Origin: Lachnospiraceae bacterium
Lineage (GTDB): Bacteria > Bacillota > Clostridia > Lachnospirales > Lachnospiraceae
Reading direction: 5' to 3'
DNA: 47,153 nt
Assembly (NCBI GenBank): GCA_017396555.1
Contig: JAFQLS010000001.1
Coordinates: 1-47,153 of the forward strand
Shown here: positions 2,622 through 38,419 of the stretch, piece after piece
Layout: each line of letters starts with the position of its first letter
How positions within the stretch are numbered: position 1 is the stretch's first letter
Translations under genes and position numbers: made by a program
Notes under the pieces: model-generated
The model's database searches: none
What the model was told of the DNA's origin: nothing
The model's input: only the letters and a program-made list of their open reading frames with translations

Positions 2622-4832
2622 CTACACTTTTTTAAGTTTTGCAAATGAGGCAAACATTTTTTTTGTACCAAATTTCTCAAAATCAACCTCAACCTCATAA
2701 TCTCTACCACCTTCGGTTATACTAACAACAATACCCAAACCAAACTTAATGTGTCTTACCATATCACCCACTTCATAATCAAGACTATCCGCTTTGGTAA
2801 CTTTGAACTTCTGTGGATCAAATGCCTTTGTATTAAATATCTGCTTTACACTTGACTGATTATAAGTCTTAACTTCTTCGCTAACACCCATTTTCCTTAC
2901 AGACAAATTAGTATCAAGCAATTCTTCAGGAATTTCCATAATAAACCTTGACACTTTATTATATTGCGTCTGTCCATGTAACATTCTCATTTGTGCCGAA
3001 GTAATCATAAGTTCTTCTTTAGCTCTGGTTATCGCCACATAACACAAACGTCTCTCTTCTTCCATCTCAGAAGGATCACCACTCGAAATTGTCATATAAC
3101 TTGGAAACAATCCATCCTCCATACCACATAAGTATACCTTAGAAAATTCAAGTCCTTTTGCACTGTGGATTGTCATAAGTACAACATAATTATCTGTGGC
3201 ATTTAGGGAATCAATATCTGCAATAAGGGCTACTTCTTCGAGAAATTCATTTAAGGTTGGAGCTTCGTTGCGTTCTTCAAAATCTACGATTTTATTAAAG
3301 AATTCATCTAGATTCTCTAATCTTTCTTTAGCTTCATCCGTACCCTCATCTCTTAACTCCTGAACATAGCCAGTAACCTCCATTAATTCCTCATACACAT
3401 CTGAAATGTGCATATGAACCGACTTAGTTCTTAGCAACTGAATCAAATCTACAAAAGGCTTTATCTTTGCCGCAGCTCTACCAACTATATTAACAAGATT
3501 TTCATCCTTTAATACATCATAAAAATTCATTTCGTTCGCTGCTGCATACGCCTCAATTTTTGTTATGGTAGACGTACCAATCCCTCGCTTTGGCACATTA
3601 ATGATACGTTTTACAGCAACATCATCCCTTGCATTTGCAATAGTTTTTAAATAAGCCAGAACATCCTTGATTTCCTTTCGCTGATAGAAATTAATTCCGC
3701 CAACAATCTTATATGGAATATTCGCATTCATAAATTTTTCTTCAAGAATACGCGACTGTGCATTTGTTCTATACAGACACACCATATCTCTATAGTTATA
3801 TTTTCCTGATAAAATATTGCTCTTCATATCATCTGCAATAATTTCAGCCTCAGTATATGCTGTATCAATCTGCCTGAACACAACCTTTTCGCCGGTTCCA
3901 ATATCAGTCCACAAACGTTTTGCTTTTCTTCCCTTATTATTAGCTATTACTCCATTTGCAGCATCTAATATATTGCTGGTAGAACGATAATTCTGCTCAA
4001 GCTTTATAACTCTTGCATCCTCAAATACCTTCTCAAAATTGAGAATATTGCTGATGTTAGCTCCTCTAAATTTATATATAGACTGGTCATCATCACCAAC
4101 CACACATAAATTTCTGTTTTTAGCTGCAAGAAGACTAATAAACATAAACTGAACAGTATTAGTATCCTGATACTCATCAACATGAATATACTGAAATCTA
4201 TTCTGGTAATACTCAAGAACCTCTGCGTTGCTTTTAAATAATTCCACTGTTTTAACCAGCAAATCATCAAAATCAAGAGCATTGTTCTTCTTAAGTTCCT
4301 TCTGATATTCTATATATACCTCTGCAATTGTCTTTTTTGTAAAATCTACACTTGCCTCCATAAAATATTGTTCAGGAGAAATCATTTCATTTTTAGCTGA
4401 AGAAATAGCACTCATAATTGCTCTTTCCCTTAGCTTTTTCGTATCTATTTCAAGACGCTTACAAATCGACTTTATAAGGCTCTTCTGATCTTCTGTATCA
4501 TATATAGTAAAATCATTACCAAAACCAATTTTATCTATATATCTTCTAAGTATTTTTACGCACGAAGAATGAAATGTACTTACCCATATACTTTCAGAGC
4601 CAAATCCAACCAGATTATCAACTCTTTCTCTCATCTCTTCTGCCGCTTTATTTGTAAATGTTATAGCCATTATATTCCATGGATTAACACCACACTCATC
4701 TATAAGATATGCAATTCTATGGGTTAAAACTCTGGTTTTTCCAGAGCCTGCCCCCGCTAATATAAGCAGCGGTCCTTCTGTATGAAAAACCGCCTGCTTC
4801 TGCATATCATTTAAATTATCATATATGCTCAT
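2622..4832 (-). CDS. pcrA: ATP-dependent 3'-5' DNA helicase PcrA (UvrD/Rep family)
   Basis: 736 residues, the normal length for PcrA. It unwinds DNA during repair and removes RecA filaments and stalled complexes. Visible motifs: Walker A GAGSGKT (27-33), motif Ia TFTNKAA (about 58-64), DEYQDTN (motif II, about 219-225), GDDDQSIYKFRGA (motif III), QNYRST (motif IV), MTIHSAKGLEF (motif V) and YVAITRAKE (motif VI). The last 60 residues form the Tudor-like C-terminal domain typical of PcrA (VGDMVRHIKFGLG), which binds RNA polymerase in Bacillus. The start has AAGGAAG six bases upstream. It lies 19 bases after the SPFH gene and so probably shares the stress-operon transcript. Confidence 0.95.
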   Translation of the reverse strand: MSIYDNLNDMQKQAVFHTEGPLLILAGAGSGKTRVLTHRIAYLIDECGVNPWNIMAITFTNKAAEEMRERVDNLVGFGSESIWVSTFHSSCVKILRRYIDKIGFGNDFTIYDTEDQKSLIKSICKRLEIDTKKLRERAIMSAISSAKNEMISPEQYFMEASVDFTKKTIAEVYIEYQKELKKNNALDFDDLLVKTVELFKSNAEVLEYYQNRFQYIHVDEYQDTNTVQFMFISLLAAKNRNLCVVGDDDQSIYKFRGANISNILNFEKVFEDARVIKLEQNYRSTSNILDAANGVIANNKGRKAKRLWTDIGTGEKVVFRQIDTAYTEAEIIADDMKSNILSGKYNYRDMVCLYRTNAQSRILEEKFMNANIPYKIVGGINFYQRKEIKDVLAYLKTIANARDDVAVKRIINVPKRGIGTSTITKIEAYAAANEMNFYDVLKDENLVNIVGRAAAKIKPFVDLIQLLRTKSVHMHISDVYEELMEVTGYVQELRDEGTDEAKERLENLDEFFNKIVDFEERNEAPTLNEFLEEVALIADIDSLNATDNYVVLMTIHSAKGLEFSKVYLCGMEDGLFPSYMTISSGDPSEMEEERRLCYVAITRAKEELMITSAQMRMLHGQTQYNKVSRFIMEIPEELLDTNLSVRKMGVSEEVKTYNQSSVKQIFNTKAFDPQKFKVTKADSLDYEVGDMVRHIKFGLGIVVSITEGGRDYEVEVDFEKFGTKKMFASFAKLKKV

Positions 4833-4851
4833 ATTAACTTCCTTAAAATAA

Positions 4852-5883
4852 TTATGCTAACTTTGTTCCACAATTACTACAGAACTTTGCTCCATTTGTA
4901 GGTGTACCACATTCAGGACAGAATTTTGGAACCTGACCATTTCCTGCCGGCTGTGATGGCTGACCCTGCATTGGCTGACCCTGCATTGGCTGACCCTGCA
5001 TTGGTTGACCCATCATACCCATTGCCGGACCCATGTTATTAACCATCTGCTGACCCATCATCATACCCATCTGCATTCCTGCCATAGTATTTGCCATATT
5101 TGCAGCAGTATTGCCCATACCTGCATTACCGCCCTTGCCCATATTATCAATCATAGCCATCTGGGCGTATCTATTCATATCGCCAACCATGCTTTGTGAA
5201 GCTGCCTTCTTCTGCATAGCCTGAACTTCTTCCGGATAAGAAAAGCTTGATACCGCAAAGTCTGTAATAGAAATACCGAGCTTGCATATATCCATATCCA
5301 AGTCATCCTTAATACCGTTTGAAATGTCATATGCATTTGCCTGAAGGTTGAACATATCCTTACCTTCCTTAGCAATCCATTTCATAAGAAGCTGATCAAG
5401 ACGTCCTATAACTCTTTCCTTAACATCATCTACTGTAAATTGCTTCTTAACACCTGCCACCTTATCAATAAGTGTGTTGTAATCACTTATCTTACAGTTA
5501 AATGTACCAAATGCTCTGATTGGCATACCACCCGGAAGGCCTGGTGCCGGAATACTAATTGCATTCTTCGTTCCCCATTTTACAGTAAATTCCTTTGTAT
5601 TAATAAATAATACTTCTGCTCTGATTCCACTATTGAACCCGAACTTAAATCCTTTAAGTGTAGAAAGGAATGGTATAATCTGAGATTCAATATCATAGCT
5701 TCCTTCATCCTCAAATATACCTTCTACCTTACCATTGTACATAAATATAGCATCCTGACCCGGACGAATAATAAGCTTAGAACCCTTCTTAATCTCATCA
5801 TTGTTCCATTTCCAGAACATTATGTCATCTCTGCTCTCCTGCCATTCTACTACATTAGAAAACTGACTACTAAATAATCCCAT
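4852..5883 (-). CDS. YdjI-like SPFH-domain protein with a C-terminal zinc ribbon
   Basis: 343 residues. The first 220 or so form an SPFH (stomatin/prohibitin/flotillin) domain of the 'virion core-like' type. They are followed by a Met/Gly/Gln-rich flexible stretch (about 225-315) and a double CxxC zinc ribbon at the end (CPEC...CSNC). This order is that of Bacillus subtilis YdjI, which links PspA to the membrane. The gene follows a YdjG-like gene; its AGGAGG overlaps that gene's TAG stop, so translation is probably coupled. The flexible part contains three exact copies of a 15-bp unit. No membrane segment is visible, so it probably acts at the membrane through partners. Confidence 0.88.
   Translation of the reverse strand: MGLFSSQFSNVVEWQESRDDIMFWKWNNDEIKKGSKLIIRPGQDAIFMYNGKVEGIFEDEGSYDIESQIIPFLSTLKGFKFGFNSGIRAEVLFINTKEFTVKWGTKNAISIPAPGLPGGMPIRAFGTFNCKISDYNTLIDKVAGVKKQFTVDDVKERVIGRLDQLLMKWIAKEGKDMFNLQANAYDISNGIKDDLDMDICKLGISITDFAVSSFSYPEEVQAMQKKAASQSMVGDMNRYAQMAMIDNMGKGGNAGMGNTAANMANTMAGMQMGMMMGQQMVNNMGPAMGMMGQPMQGQPMQGQPMQGQPSQPAGNGQVPKFCPECGTPTNGAKFCSNCGTKLA
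4957..5001. repeat. Three exact 15-bp tandem repeats inside the SPFH gene
   Basis: The unit TGGCTGACCCTGCAT (plus strand) occurs three times without change at 4957-4971, 4972-4986 and 4987-5001, followed by a diverged fourth copy (5002-5016). Each unit encodes Met-Gln-Gly-Gln-Pro, so a change in copy number keeps the frame and only alters the length of the linker before the zinc ribbon. Confidence 0.9.
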
Positions 5884-5895
5884 TGTGTATTCCTC

Positions 5896-7047
5896 CTAAA
5901 TATCGTAATCATATAAATCATAATCATATGAGTCCATATAAGCCTCATTTGCTACATTATAGCCAAGATCATCCTTCTTATCTTCTCCACCACAATTCTT
6001 AGCAGCGAATATACCACCAATAATACCTGCAATAATAAGAATAATTAACGCAATTTTTAGTGGACTCTTTGGATATTGACCTGCAATTTTACCATTCTGA
6101 CCATTAATCAATACAGAATATGTTTTCCCTTTAAAATTATATGCTGTTGCATATACAGGAAGAAGTATATGCTTATATGTTTCATCTCTATATTCTATAT
6201 CTACAGAAAGATTTCTTACTTCATCATATTTCTTAAGAACCTGTGACCTAGACATGCTTCTAAGTTCAGTTTCCATCTGTCTTACTGCATCCTTATGTGC
6301 ATCCTCTAATGATACCGAATAACATTCAGCACCATAACCCGATAAATATGTAGGTGCATAAGGTTTTATCTTCTTTGTATCATATGGTTCAACACCCTTA
6401 AGCAATGATGCTTTCATATTTTTAGAAGCCTTAACTAATACGTCATCAAAGAAATTCTTAACACGTCCATGTACTGAATACCAGTCTGTAACAGTCTTAG
6501 TTACCTCTTCTCCATTAGAATTAGTAGTTTTTACCTTCCTATGTTTACCACCTTCTGCATGATAGTCACATATTGTATCTGCATCAAATGTCCAATACGG
6601 AACATAAACACCCTGTACTTTATCTTTTTCATAGAGATTCTTCAAAGAACCTGGTGCTAACCATCTCTTGTTAATCCATTTTGTAAAAATTTCTCCCGCT
6701 TTATGTTTATCAACCTGAAAAGTTAATACACCATCAGGTATAATAGCTGCTTCCTGCTTCTCAGCAAGAACATAACTCGAACCACAATAAGGACATTCCG
6801 TTGCTGTACAATCTGCAGACACCTCAACCTGTGCTCCACATCCTTTACAATCCATTGTATGAGATGTTTTTTCCTGCACTGGAATAGACTGTGCTTTTCT
6901 CTTCGAAAATGTATGCTCTACAACATCCTTAGATTTTGCTTTAATCTTTCTCTCATTGCCACAATTAGGACACTTAAGTCCCTGTGTAGCAATATCAAAT
7001 TCCATAACACCACCACAGCCGTCGCAGTAATAGATTTCTTCTGACAT
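5896..7047 (-). CDS. YdjG-like zinc-ribbon membrane protein of the PspA module
   Basis: 383 residues. Two zinc ribbons stand at the N-terminus (C8/C11...C26/C29 and C67/C70...C85/C88), the second of TFIIB type. A central domain of about 200 residues follows, then one membrane span near residues 333-352 and a short tail rich in Asp and Tyr. The order matches Bacillus YdjG, which with YdjI recruits PspA to the membrane. The start at 7047 is set by TAGGAGGATATAT directly upstream; the longer frame from 7098 would run through the terminator hairpin. No homologue of YdjH (TPM domain), the third Bacillus partner, is present between this gene and the SPFH gene. Confidence 0.87.
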   Translation of the reverse strand: MSEEIYYCDGCGGVMEFDIATQGLKCPNCGNERKIKAKSKDVVEHTFSKRKAQSIPVQEKTSHTMDCKGCGAQVEVSADCTATECPYCGSSYVLAEKQEAAIIPDGVLTFQVDKHKAGEIFTKWINKRWLAPGSLKNLYEKDKVQGVYVPYWTFDADTICDYHAEGGKHRKVKTTNSNGEEVTKTVTDWYSVHGRVKNFFDDVLVKASKNMKASLLKGVEPYDTKKIKPYAPTYLSGYGAECYSVSLEDAHKDAVRQMETELRSMSRSQVLKKYDEVRNLSVDIEYRDETYKHILLPVYATAYNFKGKTYSVLINGQNGKIAGQYPKSPLKIALIILIIAGIIGGIFAAKNCGGEDKKDDLGYNVANEAYMDSYDYDLYDYDI

Positions 7048-8714: not shown

Positions 8715-8732
8715 AAAAAAGGGAACATTAGT
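8715..8732. terminator. Left half of a split bidirectional terminator, with target-site duplication
   Basis: A6-GGG followed by AACATTAGT (8724-8732). The same nine bases stand at the other side of the element (12425-12433), followed by CCCC-T7. Joined, they give a stem A6G3/C3T6 around a 10-base loop, lying between the convergent DUF1836 and substrate-binding protein genes. Confidence 0.75.
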
Positions 8733-8750
8733 CCAATGTCATTTAGTTAA
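8733..8750 (+). repeat. Left terminal inverted repeat of the insertion element
   Basis: CCAATGTCATTTAGTTAA, an exact reverse complement of the right end. After a 2-base gap the similarity continues for about six bases (TTTCAA). Confidence 0.88.
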
Positions 8751-8765
8751 GGTTTCAAGAAAACA

Positions 8766-8804
8766 CACCCGTCCACTTAATCAAAAGTGAACGGGTGCTT
8801 TTTT
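8766..8804 (+). terminator. Inward-facing terminator at the left end of the element
   Basis: A 13-bp stem with one mismatch (8766-8778 with 8785-8797), a 6-base loop and then CTTTTTTG on the plus strand. It stops transcripts entering the element from the DUF1836 gene, which has lost its own terminator. It may also help end the cargo transcript on the other strand. Confidence 0.72.
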
Positions 8805-8886
8805 GCCATTTCGACAAATTAGAATTTGACGCTCCGTCAAACTGAAAGTTTCGAGTGCTTTGTAGCACATGAATTATCATTACAAA

Positions 8887-9327
8887 TCAAGTCATATTAT
8901 TTATAAATCCCGAAAAATTCTCACTTACTTTCAGATATGCATCTTCAGGATTTTCTTCATCTATACAATCGCTCATAAAATAGTAAATGCAACCATAATC
9001 ATAAGTTCTTGTACTAAAGCAGAATGTTTCTCCTCCCTCATCATATCCAAAAGGAATAAACCCTTTTATCCACCAACTCTCAGCATTAACATTCTTTAAT
9101 GCTTTCTCAAATTTATTATTCACAGGATAGAAACCATGAAATCTCGTACTACTTTTCCAATCTCCATCTTGTAAACAAACTTCTCTTTTTTTCAGTTTTC
9201 CACCATTATATTGTGTATAAAAACTTTTAAATTCATCAGGAAATATAAAACCATATTCCTGTTCAAGCTTTATTAAATCATCTAATAAAGCCTTTTCGCA
9301 ATCAGATATTATTTCATTAGTAAACAT
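8887..9327 (-). CDS. SMI1/KNR4 (SUKH) family protein, probable orphan immunity protein
   Basis: 146 residues matching the SUKH-1 pattern: LEQEYGFIFPDEFKSFYTQYNGG near the start, a PFGYDEGGETFCFSTR-like middle and a C-terminal helix (FSGFINNM). In bacteria this superfamily mainly provides immunity proteins that neutralise contact-dependent or polymorphic toxins; a few have other roles. No toxin gene is nearby. Start ATG has AAAGAGA upstream. It is the last of three cargo genes of the insertion element; small hairpins (8825-8841, 8855-8868) follow its stop. Codon use is AT-rich like the host genes and unlike the transposase. Confident family, inferred role. Confidence 0.82.
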   Translation of the reverse strand: MFTNEIISDCEKALLDDLIKLEQEYGFIFPDEFKSFYTQYNGGKLKKREVCLQDGDWKSSTRFHGFYPVNNKFEKALKNVNAESWWIKGFIPFGYDEGGETFCFSTRTYDYGCIYYFMSDCIDEENPEDAYLKVSENFSGFINNMT

Positions 9328-9378
9328 TGTTATTCTCTTTCAACTTCATGTAGGCTTTCGGACTCATCTGAATCTCAT

Positions 9379-9693
9379 TCAATTCTTTTTGTTTAAGAAA
9401 TTATCAAACCTTTTTTCCAGTATCTCTCTGAATTCAATATTATTACATTTCGCAATAAGGTTTGTATACCTCTCTATATCATAAAAATCAACACTTTCGA
9501 TTGCATGTAATAATGCCCAATTCAAATCGTCACAATCATCTGAAAACATCGAAACTATCAATTCTGCTTCATCATATGTAAGAGGTTCCTCATTTTGCAA
9601 CAACAAATCATACTGATTAAAAAGTTCATTTGTCATATCATTATCATTTGGAATCTTCCCTAATTCAACAAATTCAGTAATACTTTTTTTCAC
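9379..9693 (-). CDS. Small acidic protein, possible immunity protein (Imm30-like)
   Basis: 104 residues beginning at GTG 9693, with GGAGG seven bases upstream. It is strongly acidic and entirely helical in appearance. A segment around residues 43-75 (ELIVSMFSDDCDDLNWALLHAIESVDF) has the look of small immunity proteins of the Imm30 type from polymorphic-toxin loci, which often sit next to SUKH genes. The resemblance is by eye only and should be treated as a suggestion. It lies between the zinc-ribbon and SUKH cargo genes, 51 bases before the SUKH start, and is probably in the same transcript. Confidence 0.5.
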   Translation of the reverse strand: MKKSITEFVELGKIPNDNDMTNELFNQYDLLLQNEEPLTYDEAELIVSMFSDDCDDLNWALLHAIESVDFYDIERYTNLIAKCNNIEFREILEKRFDNFLNKKN

Positions 9694-9741
9694 TTGCTTT
9701 CCTCCACAAACTTCAAAGTTTCTGTTCCCTACAAATTGGAA

Positions 9742-9963
9742 TTACTTAGCCTTTTTTGCGTAATCTAAAATAATCTTTTTACATCTTGGACAATGGTAGG
9801 CTGCACATGTTGTTGTTAAGCGACTTTGTGAAGGGACGGTAAACTCTCCAATCGATTTGTTCGGCCAAAACTGAACCTTGTGTGGTTCTATTGAAAAAAT
9901 GGTATCTCTAGCACTCTGAATATATCCGTCTTTCATTTCGCTGTTGCAATATGGACACTTCAT
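9742..9963 (-). CDS. Small zinc-ribbon protein (PF20097/DUF6487-like)
   Basis: 73 residues from ATG 9963 (AAGGAG about 10 bases upstream); a start at 9990 would add nine residues without a site. Ligands of a zinc ribbon are C3/C6 at the start and C58/C61 near the end (CPYC, CPRC), with a beta-rich stretch between them containing several Trp/Phe/Pro. The pattern, including GYIQSARD and the closing CKKIILDY, matches a family of short proteins of unknown function common in Firmicutes. It is the first of three cargo genes and lies directly behind the cargo promoter. Confidence 0.7.
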   Translation of the reverse strand: MKCPYCNSEMKDGYIQSARDTIFSIEPHKVQFWPNKSIGEFTVPSQSRLTTTCAAYHCPRCKKIILDYAKKAK

Positions 9964-10027
9964 ACAATCACACTCCTTCATCAACTTCAAATTTGTCTAA
10001 CTGTTTCATAAATTTGTTAATATCTAC

Positions 10028-10056
10028 AGTGTACAGTTACTGTACGCCTGTGTCAA
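10028..10056 (-). promoter_or_regulatory. Cargo promoter with an embedded 15-bp palindromic operator
   Basis: Minus strand: perfect -35 TTGACA (10051-10056), 17-base spacer, -10 TACACT (10028-10033). A perfect palindrome GTACAGT-T-ACTGTAC (10031-10045) covers the -10 and most of the spacer, the usual place for a repressor site. Transcription would start about 58 bases before the zinc-ribbon gene. The regulator is not identifiable; none is encoded in the element. Confidence 0.62.
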
Positions 10057-10076
10057 CTAAAATGCTCTTATATTTC

Positions 10077-10493
10077 AAATTATCAACTAGTCTGCACAAT
10101 GGATGAAAAATCCGTGCAAAATTGCAAAATACCGAAAAATCCCAAAATCTTAACTCGTCTGTTTAACGCATAGAAAATTTAATGAATTTACCAAAAATGC
10201 GGAAACTCCTAATTTTTGGTAAATTCTCACTAGTCGCAGAAATGTATCAAAAAGTTGCCCATTTTTATTAAACTGGCGATAGTGACAAATTTTCATACGC
10301 CTATGTCCGCCTAAACTTAATGGCACATTATATATGTGCAATCTGCTAAAGAGTGGGGGTATCAGAAAAGCGGTCATTCCATTTTAGGATGCTTTATTGA
10401 TACTAGTTGGAAAAACTACAACAGCACTCTGTTTTAGCTTGAATGGAAATACCATTTACTTTTTTATACATTTCAGCGACTAGTTGATAAATT
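10077..10493. repeat. Spacer with three related repeats, two forming a long inverted pair
   Basis: Between cargo and transposase, 680 bases hold no convincing gene. A motif built on ACTAGTC occurs as copy A (from 10077, plus), copy B (10229-10255, plus) and copy C (10458-10484, minus). B and C agree at 25 of 27 positions as an inverted repeat. A and C share the 13-mer TTATCAACTAGTC (10080-10092) / GACTAGTTGATAA (10478-10490). This looks like a decayed small inverted-repeat element or repeated binding sites. Confidence 0.65.
10184..10226. repeat. Perfect 15-bp inverted repeat (strong hairpin)
   Basis: GAATTTACCAAAAAT (10184-10198) pairs exactly with 10212-10226 around a 13-base loop. No run of T follows on either strand, so it is not an ordinary terminator. 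It sits in the spacer between cargo and transposase and touches repeat copy B. Confidence 0.75.
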
Positions 10494-10600
10494 ATTATAG
10501 ACTTTCACTGTTTTTGCGTTTTTTACCCTCTGTTAAGTTTATGTAAAGCATTCTTTTTTGAAAAACCTTGTTTTCGCATCAAAAAAGCATGTTTTCACAG

Positions 10601-10646
10601 AAAAAATATGAAACAGGGCAGAAGTGTTCATATTCTGCCCCGTTTC
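10601..10646 (-). terminator. Transposase terminator
   Basis: A 14-bp stem with one mismatch (10610-10623 with 10633-10646), then T6 on the minus strand, 25 bases after the transposase stop. The other strand also ends in T5, so it may work both ways. It separates transposase and cargo transcription. Confidence 0.7.
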
Positions 10647-10671
10647 TTTTTCGTCAGATTTTTATGCGATA

Positions 10672-12000
10672 TTATGCCGACACTCTGTAAATGAAACCGA
10701 CAAATGTTTTCGCTTTTATGTTTCGTTCATCCCGTCTTCCCGGTCGGACGGGTTCGGTATACCTCGCAATATCCTGCAACAGTTTCTTTACGTCCGCATC
10801 TTTGGTGCGGAAGAATTGCCTGCAGATATGTATCGCCATAGTCATATTCACTTTGTATTCGTGAATATTTGCGTCATTTTTCCGAACAACAACCTCATTG
10901 ACAATGCGGCTGCAGAAGTTTGACATAATCATTGCAGAAAATATCTCCTGCCTTACAAAATCATCCTTTTTGCCGTGTAAATTCACTAAACCGATACCGT
11001 ATTTCAACTCACGGAACGCCGTTTCAATTCCCCAGCGGGCGTGATATAATTCCTTGATTTCCGCAAGGGTAATACTTCTGGGAAGACTTGTCGCCAGTGT
11101 TTCATATTCTCCCGTATCCAACTTGAACCGCACCACACGGATTTTCATGGGATAAGGAGATGGAAAATCCCAACGTCCTGCTCTTGTTTTACTGCTGTAT
11201 ATTCGGTCTTCCTTTTTGCGTGTCTGTAATAGAATGTAACCATTTTCCTTATCCTCTTTCGTTTGAGTCGTAGTAATGTTAAATGATACATCCGTGTCCA
11301 GTTCCGTCATTGGCAGTTTTCCGATTTCACGCATCGCCGTTCTGTCCTGCTTTACTCTTATTAGAAAGTCTGTATTTGGAGTATTCTGTATGTGGGCGAA
11401 TACGTTGTATGATTCGTAACCTCTGTCGGCAACAATTAATGTTTTCTCCTTAAAATCATACCATTTCATCATAAATAACAGTGCGCCTACCTCGTCTTGC
11501 TGAGGTTGCGGTTGTATTACACAATGCTGATAAGTCTTATTTAGCACATCATATAAGGGATTGACGTGCAGTTGGTTATATCCTTTGGGTGTGCTGTTGT
11601 TTATTACGAAGCTGTCCGATTTCGGATTGCGTGCCATGTTTATGGTAGTGCCGTCTATTGCAAGAACCCGATACCCCTTATAAGTCTTTGTGTCCTTACA
11701 CTTGGAATTGTAATTCTCGAAGATTTCTTCCATAACCGTCCATGGAATTTTATCCCGCTGTTGCACAAATGCCGATGCAGAAACAGATACTCCTGCATCG
11801 TATAATTCCTTTTTCAAACTTCCGCCCTGCATGGAAAGCAGAAGATTTATCACAGTTTCCATTGTCAGTACCCGTTTCCGTGAGAAATCGGGATTGTGAT
11901 TGTTTATGTGGTAGTTTTCCTTAAAATCGGAAACTACCTCTTGTATTGCGCTGTCAAGGTTTTCCTTAAGCACATTCGGAGTAGAGTTTACAATTCTCAT
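10672..12000 (-). CDS. IS4-family DDE transposase
   Basis: 442 residues. The three catalytic acids are D116 (in AIDGTT), D192 (in VADRGYES) and E326, the last in the family's Y-(2)R-(3)E-(6)K signature (Y319, R322, E326, K333). An N-terminal helical DNA-binding part (about 1-95) precedes the RNase H-like core, which has the usual beta-rich insertion between the second D and the E. The frame is intact, so the element may still be active. ATG 12000 has GAGGAT eight bases upstream. The leader is about 245 bases long, with -10 TATAAT at 12252-12257 but no clear -35. G+C is visibly higher than in all neighbours, a sign of transfer. Confidence 0.93.
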   Translation of the reverse strand: MRIVNSTPNVLKENLDSAIQEVVSDFKENYHINNHNPDFSRKRVLTMETVINLLLSMQGGSLKKELYDAGVSVSASAFVQQRDKIPWTVMEEIFENYNSKCKDTKTYKGYRVLAIDGTTINMARNPKSDSFVINNSTPKGYNQLHVNPLYDVLNKTYQHCVIQPQPQQDEVGALLFMMKWYDFKEKTLIVADRGYESYNVFAHIQNTPNTDFLIRVKQDRTAMREIGKLPMTELDTDVSFNITTTQTKEDKENGYILLQTRKKEDRIYSSKTRAGRWDFPSPYPMKIRVVRFKLDTGEYETLATSLPRSITLAEIKELYHARWGIETAFRELKYGIGLVNLHGKKDDFVRQEIFSAMIMSNFCSRIVNEVVVRKNDANIHEYKVNMTMAIHICRQFFRTKDADVKKLLQDIARYTEPVRPGRRDERNIKAKTFVGFIYRVSA

Positions 12001-12257
12001 ATCTTTATCCTCATTTCGTTAGTAGTTAAAAATGGGCATAAAAAAACAAGATAATAAACCCCTTTTGAAAGGAGTATACATATCCTGTGGTGTAAGTTTT
12101 ACTATTCTCTCTCTAAACTGTAACTTTTGTGCTTTCTCTACTAACTCAAATAAACTCTACTAAAATATTCTTGCTGTTGCGTTCTCTCTATTCTCTCTGT
12201 GTTCTATGATTTCTCTCTGTTGCGCCTAAACTTAACACTGCCCACATTTATATTATA
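12001..12257 (-). promoter_or_regulatory. Long transposase leader with repeated AGAGAGAA motifs
   Basis: From the -10 TATAAT (12252-12257) to the ATG lie about 245 untranslated bases. On the transcript, AGAGAGAA occurs near 12218, 12198, 12189 and 12114. A short stem (CTCCTTT/AAAGGGG type) at about 12060-12075 is followed 12 bases later by seven T, too far for a standard terminator. Such leaders may limit transposase expression; the mechanism is not visible. Confidence 0.45.
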
Positions 12258-12352
12258 CACCATTTTTATCCAAAAAGGGCAGATTTTATCAAAAAATCTA
12301 TAAATTCGGAAATGGGATTTTTTCTTAACTAAACAGATATTTTTGAACAGAC

Positions 12353-12391
12353 AAAAAGTTAAGGAGCAAATCCGAAGATTTACCCCTTAAC
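12353..12391 (-). terminator. Inward-facing terminator at the right end of the element
   Basis: A 15-bp stem (two wobble or mismatched pairs) closes on a C(TTCG)G tetraloop on the minus strand and is followed by T5. It lies inside the right end but upstream of the transposase promoter, so it blocks transcripts coming from the substrate-binding protein gene. Confidence 0.7.
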
Positions 12392-12406
12392 TTAATGATT
12401 TTGAAA

Positions 12407-12424
12407 TTAACTAAATGACATTGG
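12407..12424 (-). repeat. Right terminal inverted repeat of the insertion element
   Basis: TTAACTAAATGACATTGG, the exact reverse complement of 8733-8750. A partial internal copy (CTTAACTAAAC) stands at 12324-12334 and may be a second transposase contact. Confidence 0.88.
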
Positions 12425-12444
12425 AACATTAGTCCCCTTTTTTT
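12425..12444. terminator. Right half of the split terminator, with target-site duplication
   Basis: AACATTAGT (12425-12433), then CCCC and seven T, completing the hairpin begun at 8715. It ends at the stop codon of the substrate-binding protein gene. Each convergent gene keeps only half of the hairpin. Confidence 0.72.
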
Positions 12445-32001: not shown

Positions 32002-32081
32002 TGCGGGTGACAGGAATCGAACCTGCACGGTCTCCCACTAGATCCTAAGTCTAGCGCGTCTGCCAGTTCCGCCACACCCGC
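32002..32081 (-). tRNA. tRNA-Leu, anticodon TAG
   Basis: 80 bases without encoded CCA. Acceptor GCGGGTG pairs with CACCCGC, discriminator A. The anticodon loop CTTAGGA gives TAG. A long variable arm (class II) separates it from the T arm with TTCGATT. It has its own promoter and terminator. Confidence 0.95.
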
Positions 32082-37856: not shown

Positions 37857-37929
37857 TGAGACACCGGGGAATCGAACCCCGGACAACTTGATTAAAAGTC
37901 AAGTGCTCTACCGACTGAGCTAGTATCCC
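37857..37929 (-). tRNA. tRNA-Lys, anticodon TTT
   Basis: 73 bases. Acceptor GGGATAC pairs with GTGTCTC through two G-T pairs; anticodon loop CTTTTAA; T loop TTCGATT; discriminator A; CCA not encoded. Last gene of the six-tRNA operon. Confidence 0.95.
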
Positions 37930-37972
37930 ATACTATTAAATTACTTTCTACGAATGAATTGATTCATCCAAA

Positions 37973-38045
37973 CTGGGCTAGTTGGATTCGAACCAACGAG
38001 ATGCAGGAGTCAAAGTCCTGTGCCTTACCGCTTGGCGATAGCCCA
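37973..38045 (-). tRNA. tRNA-Gln, anticodon TTG
   Basis: 73 bases. Acceptor TGGGCTA/TAGCCCA with the U1-A72 pair usual in tRNA-Gln; anticodon loop CTTTGAC; discriminator G; CCA not encoded. Confidence 0.95.
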
Positions 38046-38076
38046 CTATTAAGATTGCCTTAAGCAAAAAAAATAG

Positions 38077-38151
38077 GGTGGATACAGGGATTCGAACCCT
38101 GGGCCTCCAGAGCCACAATCTGGCGCGCTAACCAACTGCGCTATACCCACC
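38077..38151 (-). tRNA. tRNA-His, anticodon GTG
   Basis: Acceptor GTGGGTA/TATCCAC, anticodon GTG, discriminator C and an encoded G at position -1 opposite it, the identity pair of bacterial tRNA-His. CCA not encoded. Confidence 0.95.
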
Positions 38152-38189
38152 ACAGAACTCCAGGATCCTCTTTCTTTAATTCCTAGAAA

Positions 38190-38263
<74 letters not shown>

Positions 38264-38267
38264 ATAA

Positions 38268-38338
38268 AGCGGGTGATGGGAATCGAACCCACGTATCTAG
38301 CTTGGAAGGCTAGTGTTCTACCATTGAACTACACCCGC
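38268..38338 (-). tRNA. tRNA-Gly, anticodon TCC
   Basis: 71 bases. Acceptor GCGGGTG/CACCCGC, anticodon loop CTTCCAA, discriminator T, CCA not encoded. It is only four bases before tRNA-Arg. Confidence 0.95.
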
Positions 38339-38344
38339 ATACAG

Positions 38345-38419
38345 TCGGGGTGACAGGATTCGAACCTGCGACCTCCTGATCCCAAATCAGGCGCTCTAGC
38401 CAAGCTGAGCCACACCCCG
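38345..38419 (-). tRNA. tRNA-Pro, anticodon TGG
   Basis: 75 bases. Acceptor CGGGGTG/CACCCCG with the C1-G72 pair of bacterial tRNA-Pro, anticodon loop TTTGGGA, discriminator A, CCA not encoded. First gene of the operon. Confidence 0.95.

Follow-up and report, generated by a model that had tools for sequence, protein, structure and literature searches.

Which DNA moves as a unit, where does it insert, and what do the genes that it carries do? These questions are raised by a 3,690 bp element of a Lachnospiraceae bacterium (GenBank assembly GCA_017396555.1, contig JAFQLS010000001.1, positions 1–47,153); this stretch of 47,153 nt, analyzed as a whole, is referred to below as the window. An initial annotation had interpreted the element as an IS4-type vehicle for orphan immunity genes, an interpretation that our results partly support. 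With a probability of roughly three in four, we favor the reading that the element is an IS4-family transporter insertion sequence (IS) that inserts into hairpin loops, with terminators at its ends and an exchangeable cargo bay. Its parts are the following:

8734..12423, minus strand: whole transposon, 3,690 bp, with the transposase and cargo genes on the minus strand, 17-bp perfect inverted repeats and an 11-bp target duplication
8723..8733, no strand: left copy of the target duplication, GAACATTAGTC, which in the rebuilt empty site makes up the loop of a hairpin together with its closing pair
12424..12434, no strand: right copy of the target duplication, GAACATTAGTC, delimited by comparison with related elements
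12407..12423, minus strand: inverted repeat on the transposase-upstream side, CAATGTCATTTAGTTAA
8734..8750, plus strand: inverted repeat on the cargo side, CAATGTCATTTAGTTAA
10672..12000, minus strand: IS4-family DDE transposase, 442 amino acids, single open reading frame (ORF); NF033592 profile, YREK motif YHARWGIETAFRELK
9742..9990, minus strand: cargo gene 1, DUF6487 zinc ribbon, 82 amino acids as listed; PF20097, E = 1.5e-16
9379..9693, minus strand: cargo gene 2 (ORF2), 104 amino acids, without a family in profile searches and with a low-confidence structural model
8887..9327, minus strand: cargo gene 3, SUKH (SMI1/KNR4) protein, 146 amino acids; PF09346

As first delimited, the element had 18-bp perfect inverted repeats at 8733–8750 and 12407–12424 flanked by a 9-bp repeat, AACATTAGT. 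Both the inverted repeats and the flanking repeat were recovered in our analysis, whereas the exact edges had to be corrected. In all 46 related elements of the census described below, the first base of each end was identical to the flanking base beyond the far side of the duplication, although such a match at both ends is expected by chance in 1/16 of the cases (binomial p = 4e-56 for 46 elements). The outermost base of the repeat therefore belongs to the target, so that the element extends from 8734 to 12423, with perfect inverted repeats of 17 bp and a duplication of 11 bp. The earlier observation is thus partly confirmed: the element is real, and its edges are shifted by one base. Over the 92 ends, positions 3, 4, 5, 11, 13 and 16 (the target base being position 1) are invariantly A, A, T, T, A and T, and the duplication is 9–12 bp long in 46 of 46 elements. 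At up to three mismatches, the end sequence occurs across the window at just these two places, compared with an average of 0.11 in shuffled sequences.

The element contains one DDE transposase of the IS4 type, as had been proposed from the first inspection. The protein matched NF033592 transpos_IS4_1 with E = 3.8e-50 and 170.9 bits (cutoff 115), contains the Y(2)R(3)E(6)K motif (YHARWGIETAFRELK, at residue 319), and has a catalytic triad, assigned by reading rather than by alignment to a reference, of D116 (IDGT), D192 (ADRGY) and E326 of YREK. Mobile insertion cassettes are IS ends without a transposase; here the transposase frame is open, so the element does not belong to that class. The spacings of the triad, 76 and 134 residues, fall within the D(60–110)D(100–150)E range of the IS4 family, and the single-ORF transposase and a duplication of about one helix turn (11 bp) also agree with the family description (PMC2266710; here and below, statements on published systems refer to the portions of the sources that were available to us). 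The two ends, the duplication, the transposase and the cargo genes together correspond to the definition of a transporter IS (tIS), namely an IS whose own two ends enclose passenger genes (PMC9330008). The subgroup was compared by end pattern (from the corrected edge), size and duplication only, not by a tree: the IS4Sa pattern CA------T fits the ends, with 3,690 bp and an 11-bp duplication lying outside the 1150–1750 bp and 8–10 bp of that subgroup, a size range that includes most of the plain relatives; for the IS4 subgroup, the end pattern -AATR--------WTW and the duplication of 10–13 bp fit, with the size lying outside 1400–1650 bp. The initial statement that IS4 members normally contain only a transposase was too strong, because elements of the IS231 subgroup (Bacillus cereus group) reach 5.4 kb with passenger genes (PMC2266710).

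To what extent is this organization shared by related elements? An exact scan of the species genomes for the 18-base end yielded at least 110 stretches, and the named hosts among the matches listed were many Lachnospiraceae and some Bacteroidota. Ends together with a duplication of at least 8 bases were found at 38 sites, 22 of which are 125–354 bp long, too short for a transposase gene, the remaining ones being plain or cargo-bearing elements. Relatives of the transposase were detected in 23/397 genomes of the family at E = 1e-60, in 21/392 genomes of the order at 1e-50, in 7/391 of the class and in 1/58 of the family of genome G412, as well as in 19/299 with a profile at 1e-90; because the genome samples overlap and, where a genome was rich in ISs, only some of its candidates were scored, these counts are lower bounds. 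Further relatives are located on plasmids. For the census, both ends and a duplication were required. Of 69 transposase rows, 29 were without a duplication-supported pair of ends and 40 had one; the removal of an N-filled row (L149; L numbers denote loci of this analysis) and of three duplicates recognized by their flanks left 36 distinct elements, to which 10 from plasmids and viral contigs were added, for a total of 46. Eight of these carry cargo, two hold other mobile elements and 36 are plain, with lengths of 1,413–1,907 bp. L226 holds an annotated ISL3 transposase, and L261 (7.9 kb), which contains IstA-like and tyrosine recombinases as read by eye, was not counted as cargo-bearing. Outside the 46, L182, from another family and with a transposase 75% identical to that of the window, has cargo but no right end inside its contig, and the contig of L145 (74% identical) ends 319 bases behind the transposase gene, too early to tell. 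The cargo genes of the relatives are as follows:

L146, 4.3 kb: BspA-type leucine-rich repeat (LRR) protein, CopG-like ORF below the cutoff, and a 130-amino-acid ORF before the transposase gene; located between two pieces of a MatE gene
L147, 2.5 kb: PBECR4, cargo before the transposase gene
L148, 3.9 kb: ICEA-family protein (a family that we take to be related to the NlaIII nuclease), N6/N4 DNA methylase, ribbon-helix-helix (RHH)-like ORF just below the cutoff
L154, 4.1 kb: KilA-N protein (PADLOC PDC-S22, E = 1.7e-119), two helix-turn-helix (HTH) proteins
L185, 2.5 kb: DUF3800
L228, Butyrivibrio proteoclasticus plasmid pCY360, 6.5 kb: Imm33-domain protein, RHH protein, proteins without a family
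L262, 3.5 kb: S-layer homology (SLH) protein; transposase split over two frames
L182: HTH protein with a weak PD-(D/E)XK-type match

The largest cargo element (L228, 34–6492 of NC_014389.1) is thus found on the plasmid of a named strain, in a hairpin site. The cargo differs in all eight elements, and within the lineage of the window it is kept on one side of the transposase gene. The initial annotation had proposed to test whether cargo varies between copies; it does so among related elements, whose cargo ranges from the SUKH set through LRR, HTH/nuclease-like and SLH proteins to others. Since the genes in the bay differ between relatives, they would have been exchanged.

The distribution of cargo was analyzed on a tree of 55 transposases, from which additional copies of a genome already represented, rows without paired ends and a single row containing 30 unknown residues were left out. 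The window, L182, L145, L146 and L262 form one lineage (5 rows, support 100/100), in which cargo lies behind the transposase gene in all four members where this region is visible, each time with different genes. A second lineage (7 rows, 97/90) unites L185, L228, L148 and L154, with cargo before the transposase gene, and three plain Lactobacillus copies. L147, which also has its cargo before the transposase gene, is placed weakly (83/61), and the other 42 rows are 41 plain elements and L261. The cargo label requires four changes on the tree, a value not reached in any of 500 shuffles; the order of the deep branches is not fixed. In this set of sequences, cargo is concentrated in two transposase lineages and one weakly placed element. 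The initial annotation had named, as an outcome that would speak against it, that the same ends belong to a plain IS elsewhere and that the cargo never occurs with them. This was half borne out: plain ISs with the same ends do exist, but the transposases of those seen are about 24–44% identical to that of the window, and cargo is present in every visible member of the window's own lineage.

Further observations concern other members of the group. Short non-autonomous elements with the same ends and duplications are present in Clostridia and Bacteroidota (L041, L043, L047, L058, L062, L068, L100, L108 and others), and several short copies (e.g., L062, L065, L071, L100, L105) occupy a GAA|C-G/T-GTAAC-like sequence that recurs among the sites, not a terminator. 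In the window's own genome, a related end, TCAATGTCATTAAGTTAA, is found at C3:81063, C36:38178 and C45:92055, each time 123 bases from the end of a contig, which suggests another multi-copy element, at the copies of which the assembly was interrupted. In L230 (a Lactobacillus amylovorus plasmid), a plain relative occupies 4813–6467; the annotation splits its transposase into two parts, and a predicted tet(W) gene is located outside the element at a distance of a few kb.

What does the window element carry? Its three cargo ORFs are on the strand of the transposase gene; 424 bases precede the transposase gene, and the cargo is contained in the 1.9 kb behind it. The earlier assignments of a zinc ribbon and of a SUKH protein were confirmed: the first matched DUF6487, and the second scored above the curated cutoffs of the superfamily (PF09346, E = 6.9e-20, 72.4 bits, cutoff 25.4; PF14568, 56.2 bits, cutoff 27) and also matched PADLOC PDC-M40A (E = 3.7e-7). 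For ORF2, a possible Imm30-like protein had been suggested. This label was rejected, because ORF2 matched no Imm family up to E = 10, a search in which the HMMER filters drop many weak matches; its single-sequence model is all-helical with a mean predicted local distance difference test (pLDDT) value of 56.8, too poor for a structure search. The GC contents are 41.7% for the transposase gene, 37.8% for the zinc ribbon, 28.6% for ORF2 and 29.3% for SUKH. By sequence, SUKH had no relative of solved structure at E = 1e-3, and it had no phage match at E = 1e-5 and none in viral contigs. In the 397 genomes of the family, it was found at E = 1e-6 in its own genome and as one weak match only. On plasmids, SUKH relatives occurred in 57 Burkholderia and Paraburkholderia records, 20 of which were listed with 28–32% identity; ORF2 had two plasmid records and the zinc ribbon one. 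That sole plasmid relative of the zinc ribbon (L264, 5004–5216 of NZ_CP143948.1), a DUF6487 protein with 39% identity, adjoins a tyrosine recombinase gene; DUF6487 proteins may thus be carried by other mobile elements as well. In the loci examined, the three cargo proteins matched only their own loci and one weak SUKH (L157), and in comparison with L146, L182 and L262 the window cargo shares no DNA beyond the 17 bases of the end.

Is the lineage, then, a dedicated mobile immunity unit, selected for the spread of orphan immunity genes? We consider this doubtful, although it is the best placed of the alternatives. The SUKH protein of the window and the Imm33 protein in the 6.5-kb element of pCY360 argue for it, and in Bacteroidales, protection against effectors of the type VI secretion system (T6SS) is conferred by orphan immunity proteins of the SUKH family that belong to rAID systems (PMC12247911). 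However, ORF2 matched no Imm30 profile, and the other cargo of the two lineages and of L147 consists of restriction-modification genes (ICEA plus a methylase), KilA-N with HTH proteins, DUF3800, PBECR4, and HTH/nuclease-like, LRR and SLH proteins. Among the relatives, immunity-like cargo is thus found in one other element, other conflict-type cargo in several, and surface-type cargo (LRR, SLH) in two. A PADLOC comparison at E = 1e-5 covered 15 of the 22 cargo ORFs and 20 hand-picked proteins of the 78 listed from neighboring host genes; matches were obtained for 5/15 and 2/20, respectively (p = 0.10), so that enrichment over the neighbors was not significant. The initial idea of an element that spreads orphan immunity genes therefore holds for mobility and varying cargo, not for immunity as a general rule; from these protein matches, orphan immunity appears plausible for the window copy only.

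Cargo might also have been trapped without any benefit, when a plain IS once used a look-alike end beyond host genes. TnSha1, which arose from IS1272, is the precedent: it uses an alternative end located past fabI (PMC4923244). In the present group, plain ISs that share the ends are common, and the low GC contents of ORF2 and SUKH in comparison with the transposase gene would also agree with such an origin. We nevertheless regard it as unlikely: the cargo is concentrated in two transposase lineages and not scattered, the ends of the window element are perfect and its cargo frames open, and the cargo differs in all eight elements while its side of the transposase gene is kept within the window lineage. 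Repeated accidental capture in capture-prone lineages may, however, be compatible with these counterpoints. Equally improbable, in our view, is a cargo that serves the element rather than the host, through toxin-antitoxin-like addiction or the regulation of transposition. Small RHH-like or HTH proteins are indeed found in the cargo of L146, L148, L154 and L228 (two of them below the Pfam cutoff), and restriction-modification is generally known to be potentially addictive, whereas family profiles recognized, apart from the zinc ribbon, neither a toxin gene nor a DNA-binding regulator among the ORFs of the window element.

The host genes on both sides of the element, a DUF1836 gene (plus strand) and an NMT1-like substrate-binding gene (minus strand), converge. 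The rebuilt empty site forms a hairpin (RNA fold −10.7 kcal/mol) that is preceded by an A-run and followed by a T-run, and the duplicated bases are its loop and closing pair. A possibility raised at the outset was that the three genes are host genes of this locus. In nine DUF1836 loci examined, of 21 matches outside the own genome, neither SUKH nor ORF2 nor the zinc ribbon was found beside the DUF1836 gene (tblastn, E = 1e-4), and, judged from these neighborhoods, the cargo does not resemble a resident block of host genes. None of the nine loci had the convergent pair in intact form, so that a true empty site was not recovered; in L269 the substrate-binding gene lies behind DUF1836 in the same orientation. 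Across the group, a stem score of at least 9 centered on the duplication was obtained for 29/46 sites, compared with 6/92 positions shifted by 15 nt and 22/715 random positions; 25 of the 29 hairpin sites are flanked by a left-hand A-run or a right-hand T-run, and 15 by both, whereas 17/46 sites showed no clear hairpin. With an earlier stem score, the values were 16/38 sites versus 21/929. For the first 36 elements, the mean stem score was 8.3 at shift 0 versus 2.5–3.9 at the other shifts printed. By these scores, the group tends to insert into hairpin loops, which are often terminator-like. That the sites reflect survival rather than choice, with insertions persisting between genes where they are harmless and where terminators are found, is very improbable: selection is generally known to filter IS sites, and the 17 sites without a clear hairpin would fit, but survival would favor the neighborhood of terminators rather than the center of the loop, the signal sits on the duplicated bases, and ISRm22, also of the IS4 family, inserts at the axis of repetitive extragenic palindromic (REP) sequences (PMC1525189).

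How could an insertion into a terminator be tolerated? Several noncoding features inside the element bear on this question and on the organization of the bay:

12356..12393, minus strand: terminator-like hairpin with a 17-bp stem, just inside the end and reading inward; fold z −6.6
8765..8798, no strand: terminator-like hairpin at the end on the cargo side, followed by a T-run whichever strand is read; fold z −3.4
12046..12088, minus strand: terminator-like hairpin with a U-run directly before the transposase gene; fold z −2.9
9991..10671, minus strand: noncoding spacer from the transposase gene to the cargo, with a similar spacer in L182 (23 bp identical)
10460–10486 and 10383–10409 in one orientation, 10227–10253 and 10084–10110 in the opposite one: four spacer repeats of about 27 nt

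Terminator-like hairpins are thus present at both ends of the window element, and the one at 12356–12393 has a near-identical counterpart in L182. We scanned 44 elements (L226 and L261 being left out) for inward-reading hairpins within 150 bases of the ends and found them at 30/44 left ends, at 25/44 right ends and at both ends in 19/44 elements, compared with 12/176 in transposase coding DNA and 12/264 in shuffled ends. These end terminators may replace the terminator destroyed by the insertion: at the window element, each of the two host neighbors, having had their shared terminator split, would meet a new one ending within about 70 bases of the edge. The hairpin directly before the transposase gene might represent an attenuator that blocks read-through into this gene; in the corresponding position, L182 (z −1.7) and L145 (z −2.1) have hairpins that differ in their stem bases.

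The spacer appears to be partly conserved within the lineage. Its 23-base word was found in the window and L182 regions only among 201 loci, being absent from L146 and L262, and in none of the viral contigs; the DNA from the transposase gene to the spacer had no plasmid match. With the window copy of the 27-nt repeat as a model and up to nine mismatches, the window has four copies, L182 three, L262 three and L146 none, compared with 0.07–0.3 expected (the contig of L145 is too short for this comparison). These CAACTAGTCGCTGAAATGTATCAAAAA-like repeats are candidate protein-binding or exchange sites. In addition, a perfect palindrome, GTACAGTTACTGTAC, at 10031–10045 of the window overlaps a promoter-like site ahead of the cargo and could be an operator. 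Rfam revealed no family in the element at the gathering threshold, with one chance-level match (E = 0.21). Elsewhere in the window, a cluster of six tRNA genes (37857–38419) and a single tRNA gene (32002–32081) are located on the minus strand.

Taken together, these features are consistent with the following model of a transporter IS. The single DDE transposase would recognize the 17-bp ends and move the whole 3,690 bp, probably by a cut-and-paste mechanism, into a hairpin loop, here a terminator-like one between convergent host genes, with the duplication of 11 bp, about one helix turn. Host transcripts running in via the broken terminator would be halted at the hairpins inside both ends, and the insertion would therefore be close to neutral. 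Behind the transposase gene would follow the partly conserved noncoding spacer and then the cargo bay, the genes of which would be replaced over time. In the window copy, SUKH would most likely protect the host from a delivered toxin and spread as an orphan immunity gene; of all parts of the model, this function is the least sure.

Several observations weigh against this model. The cargo set is small and was drawn from relatives of the window transposase, and the defence enrichment of the cargo amounts to a trend only. No second copy of the element was found in its own genome (85% complete), so that recent movement was not seen; nor was any relative found to share its cargo, which has therefore not been seen traveling twice. 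Only four of the eight cargo elements lie in a clear centered hairpin, the exceptions being L146, L147, L148 (which is inside a strong hairpin, off-center) and L262. At least one end terminator is lacking in 25/44 elements; L146 lacks one, and L147, L154 and L228 have neither although they carry cargo, so that this trait is not tied to cargo. L146 also deviates by ends with four mismatches, a longer stretch before the transposase gene and the absence of the 27-nt repeats. Promoter-like sites in the region of the element are at chance level (13 versus 14.1 expected).

A more far-reaching proposal is made tentatively, at somewhat less than even odds: that the two Bacillota IS4 lineages represent a previously undescribed, general cargo carrier with one enzyme, which seeks the loops of intrinsic terminators, swaps in its own end terminators with hardly any effect on the host, and exchanges genes for conflict proteins (immunity, restriction-modification, KilA-N, nuclease-like) and for surface proteins in a bay that, in the window lineage, lies behind a repeat-bearing spacer. 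Two further IS4 lineages with ever-different cargo would constitute a simple, one-transposase route for accessory genes within cellular DNA and onto plasmids, and the landing in terminator loops combined with own end terminators would explain an accumulation at low cost. Target choice, terminator replacement and cargo exchange thereby become directly testable. Among the papers listed for the open-licence literature, which leaves most subscription journals outside, none dealt with this element, with passenger genes of IS4 members other than IS231, or with IS4 elements in terminator loops.

How does the element compare with known systems? By 2008, passenger genes had not been seen in IS4 subgroups other than IS231, although the authors pointed out that these had not been searched systematically (PMC2266710). 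With IS231, the window element shares an IS4 transposase with YREK, a single ORF, a duplication of about one helix turn and a wide size range due to passenger genes. However, the ends of IS231 are CAT-------AA--TAA---, whereas those of the window, CAATGTCATTTAGTTAA, begin with CAATG, and the extra DNA of IS231 lies between its left end and the transposase gene, a position shared by the second lineage, whereas the cargo of the window lineage lies behind the transposase gene (PMC2266710). The plain IS4 elements, such as the copies of 1.65–1.7 kb from Lactobacillus plasmids, Blautia schinkii and Butyrivibrio, have the same or nearly the same 17-bp ends, the same duplication length where seen, a related transposase and often hairpin-loop sites, and differ by the identity of about 24–44% and by having no cargo. 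The rAID systems of gut Bacteroidales, in which functional orphan SUKH immunity has been reported, resemble the window element in having orphan immunity genes, including SUKH, on acquired DNA, but they are recombinase-associated, belong to another phylum and, in the available text, are described without mention of an IS4 transposase (PMC12247911). Among the ORFs of the window element only the IS4 transposase and no rAID recombinase was found, so that the element is not a rAID system. IS1272/TnSha1 (IS1182 family) is likewise an IS derivative with cargo, and its targets are hairpins that have no sequence motif and include several terminators; it differs by the transposase family and by a blunt partial deletion of the hairpin without duplication, compared with the 9–12 bp duplicated here (PMC4923244). 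ISRm22 of the IS4 family also has its insertion point at the symmetry axis of a palindrome, but there the targets are REP elements of conserved sequence in one species, and cargo is not mentioned in the accessible part of the report (PMC1525189), whereas the group described here enters hairpins of unrelated sequence.

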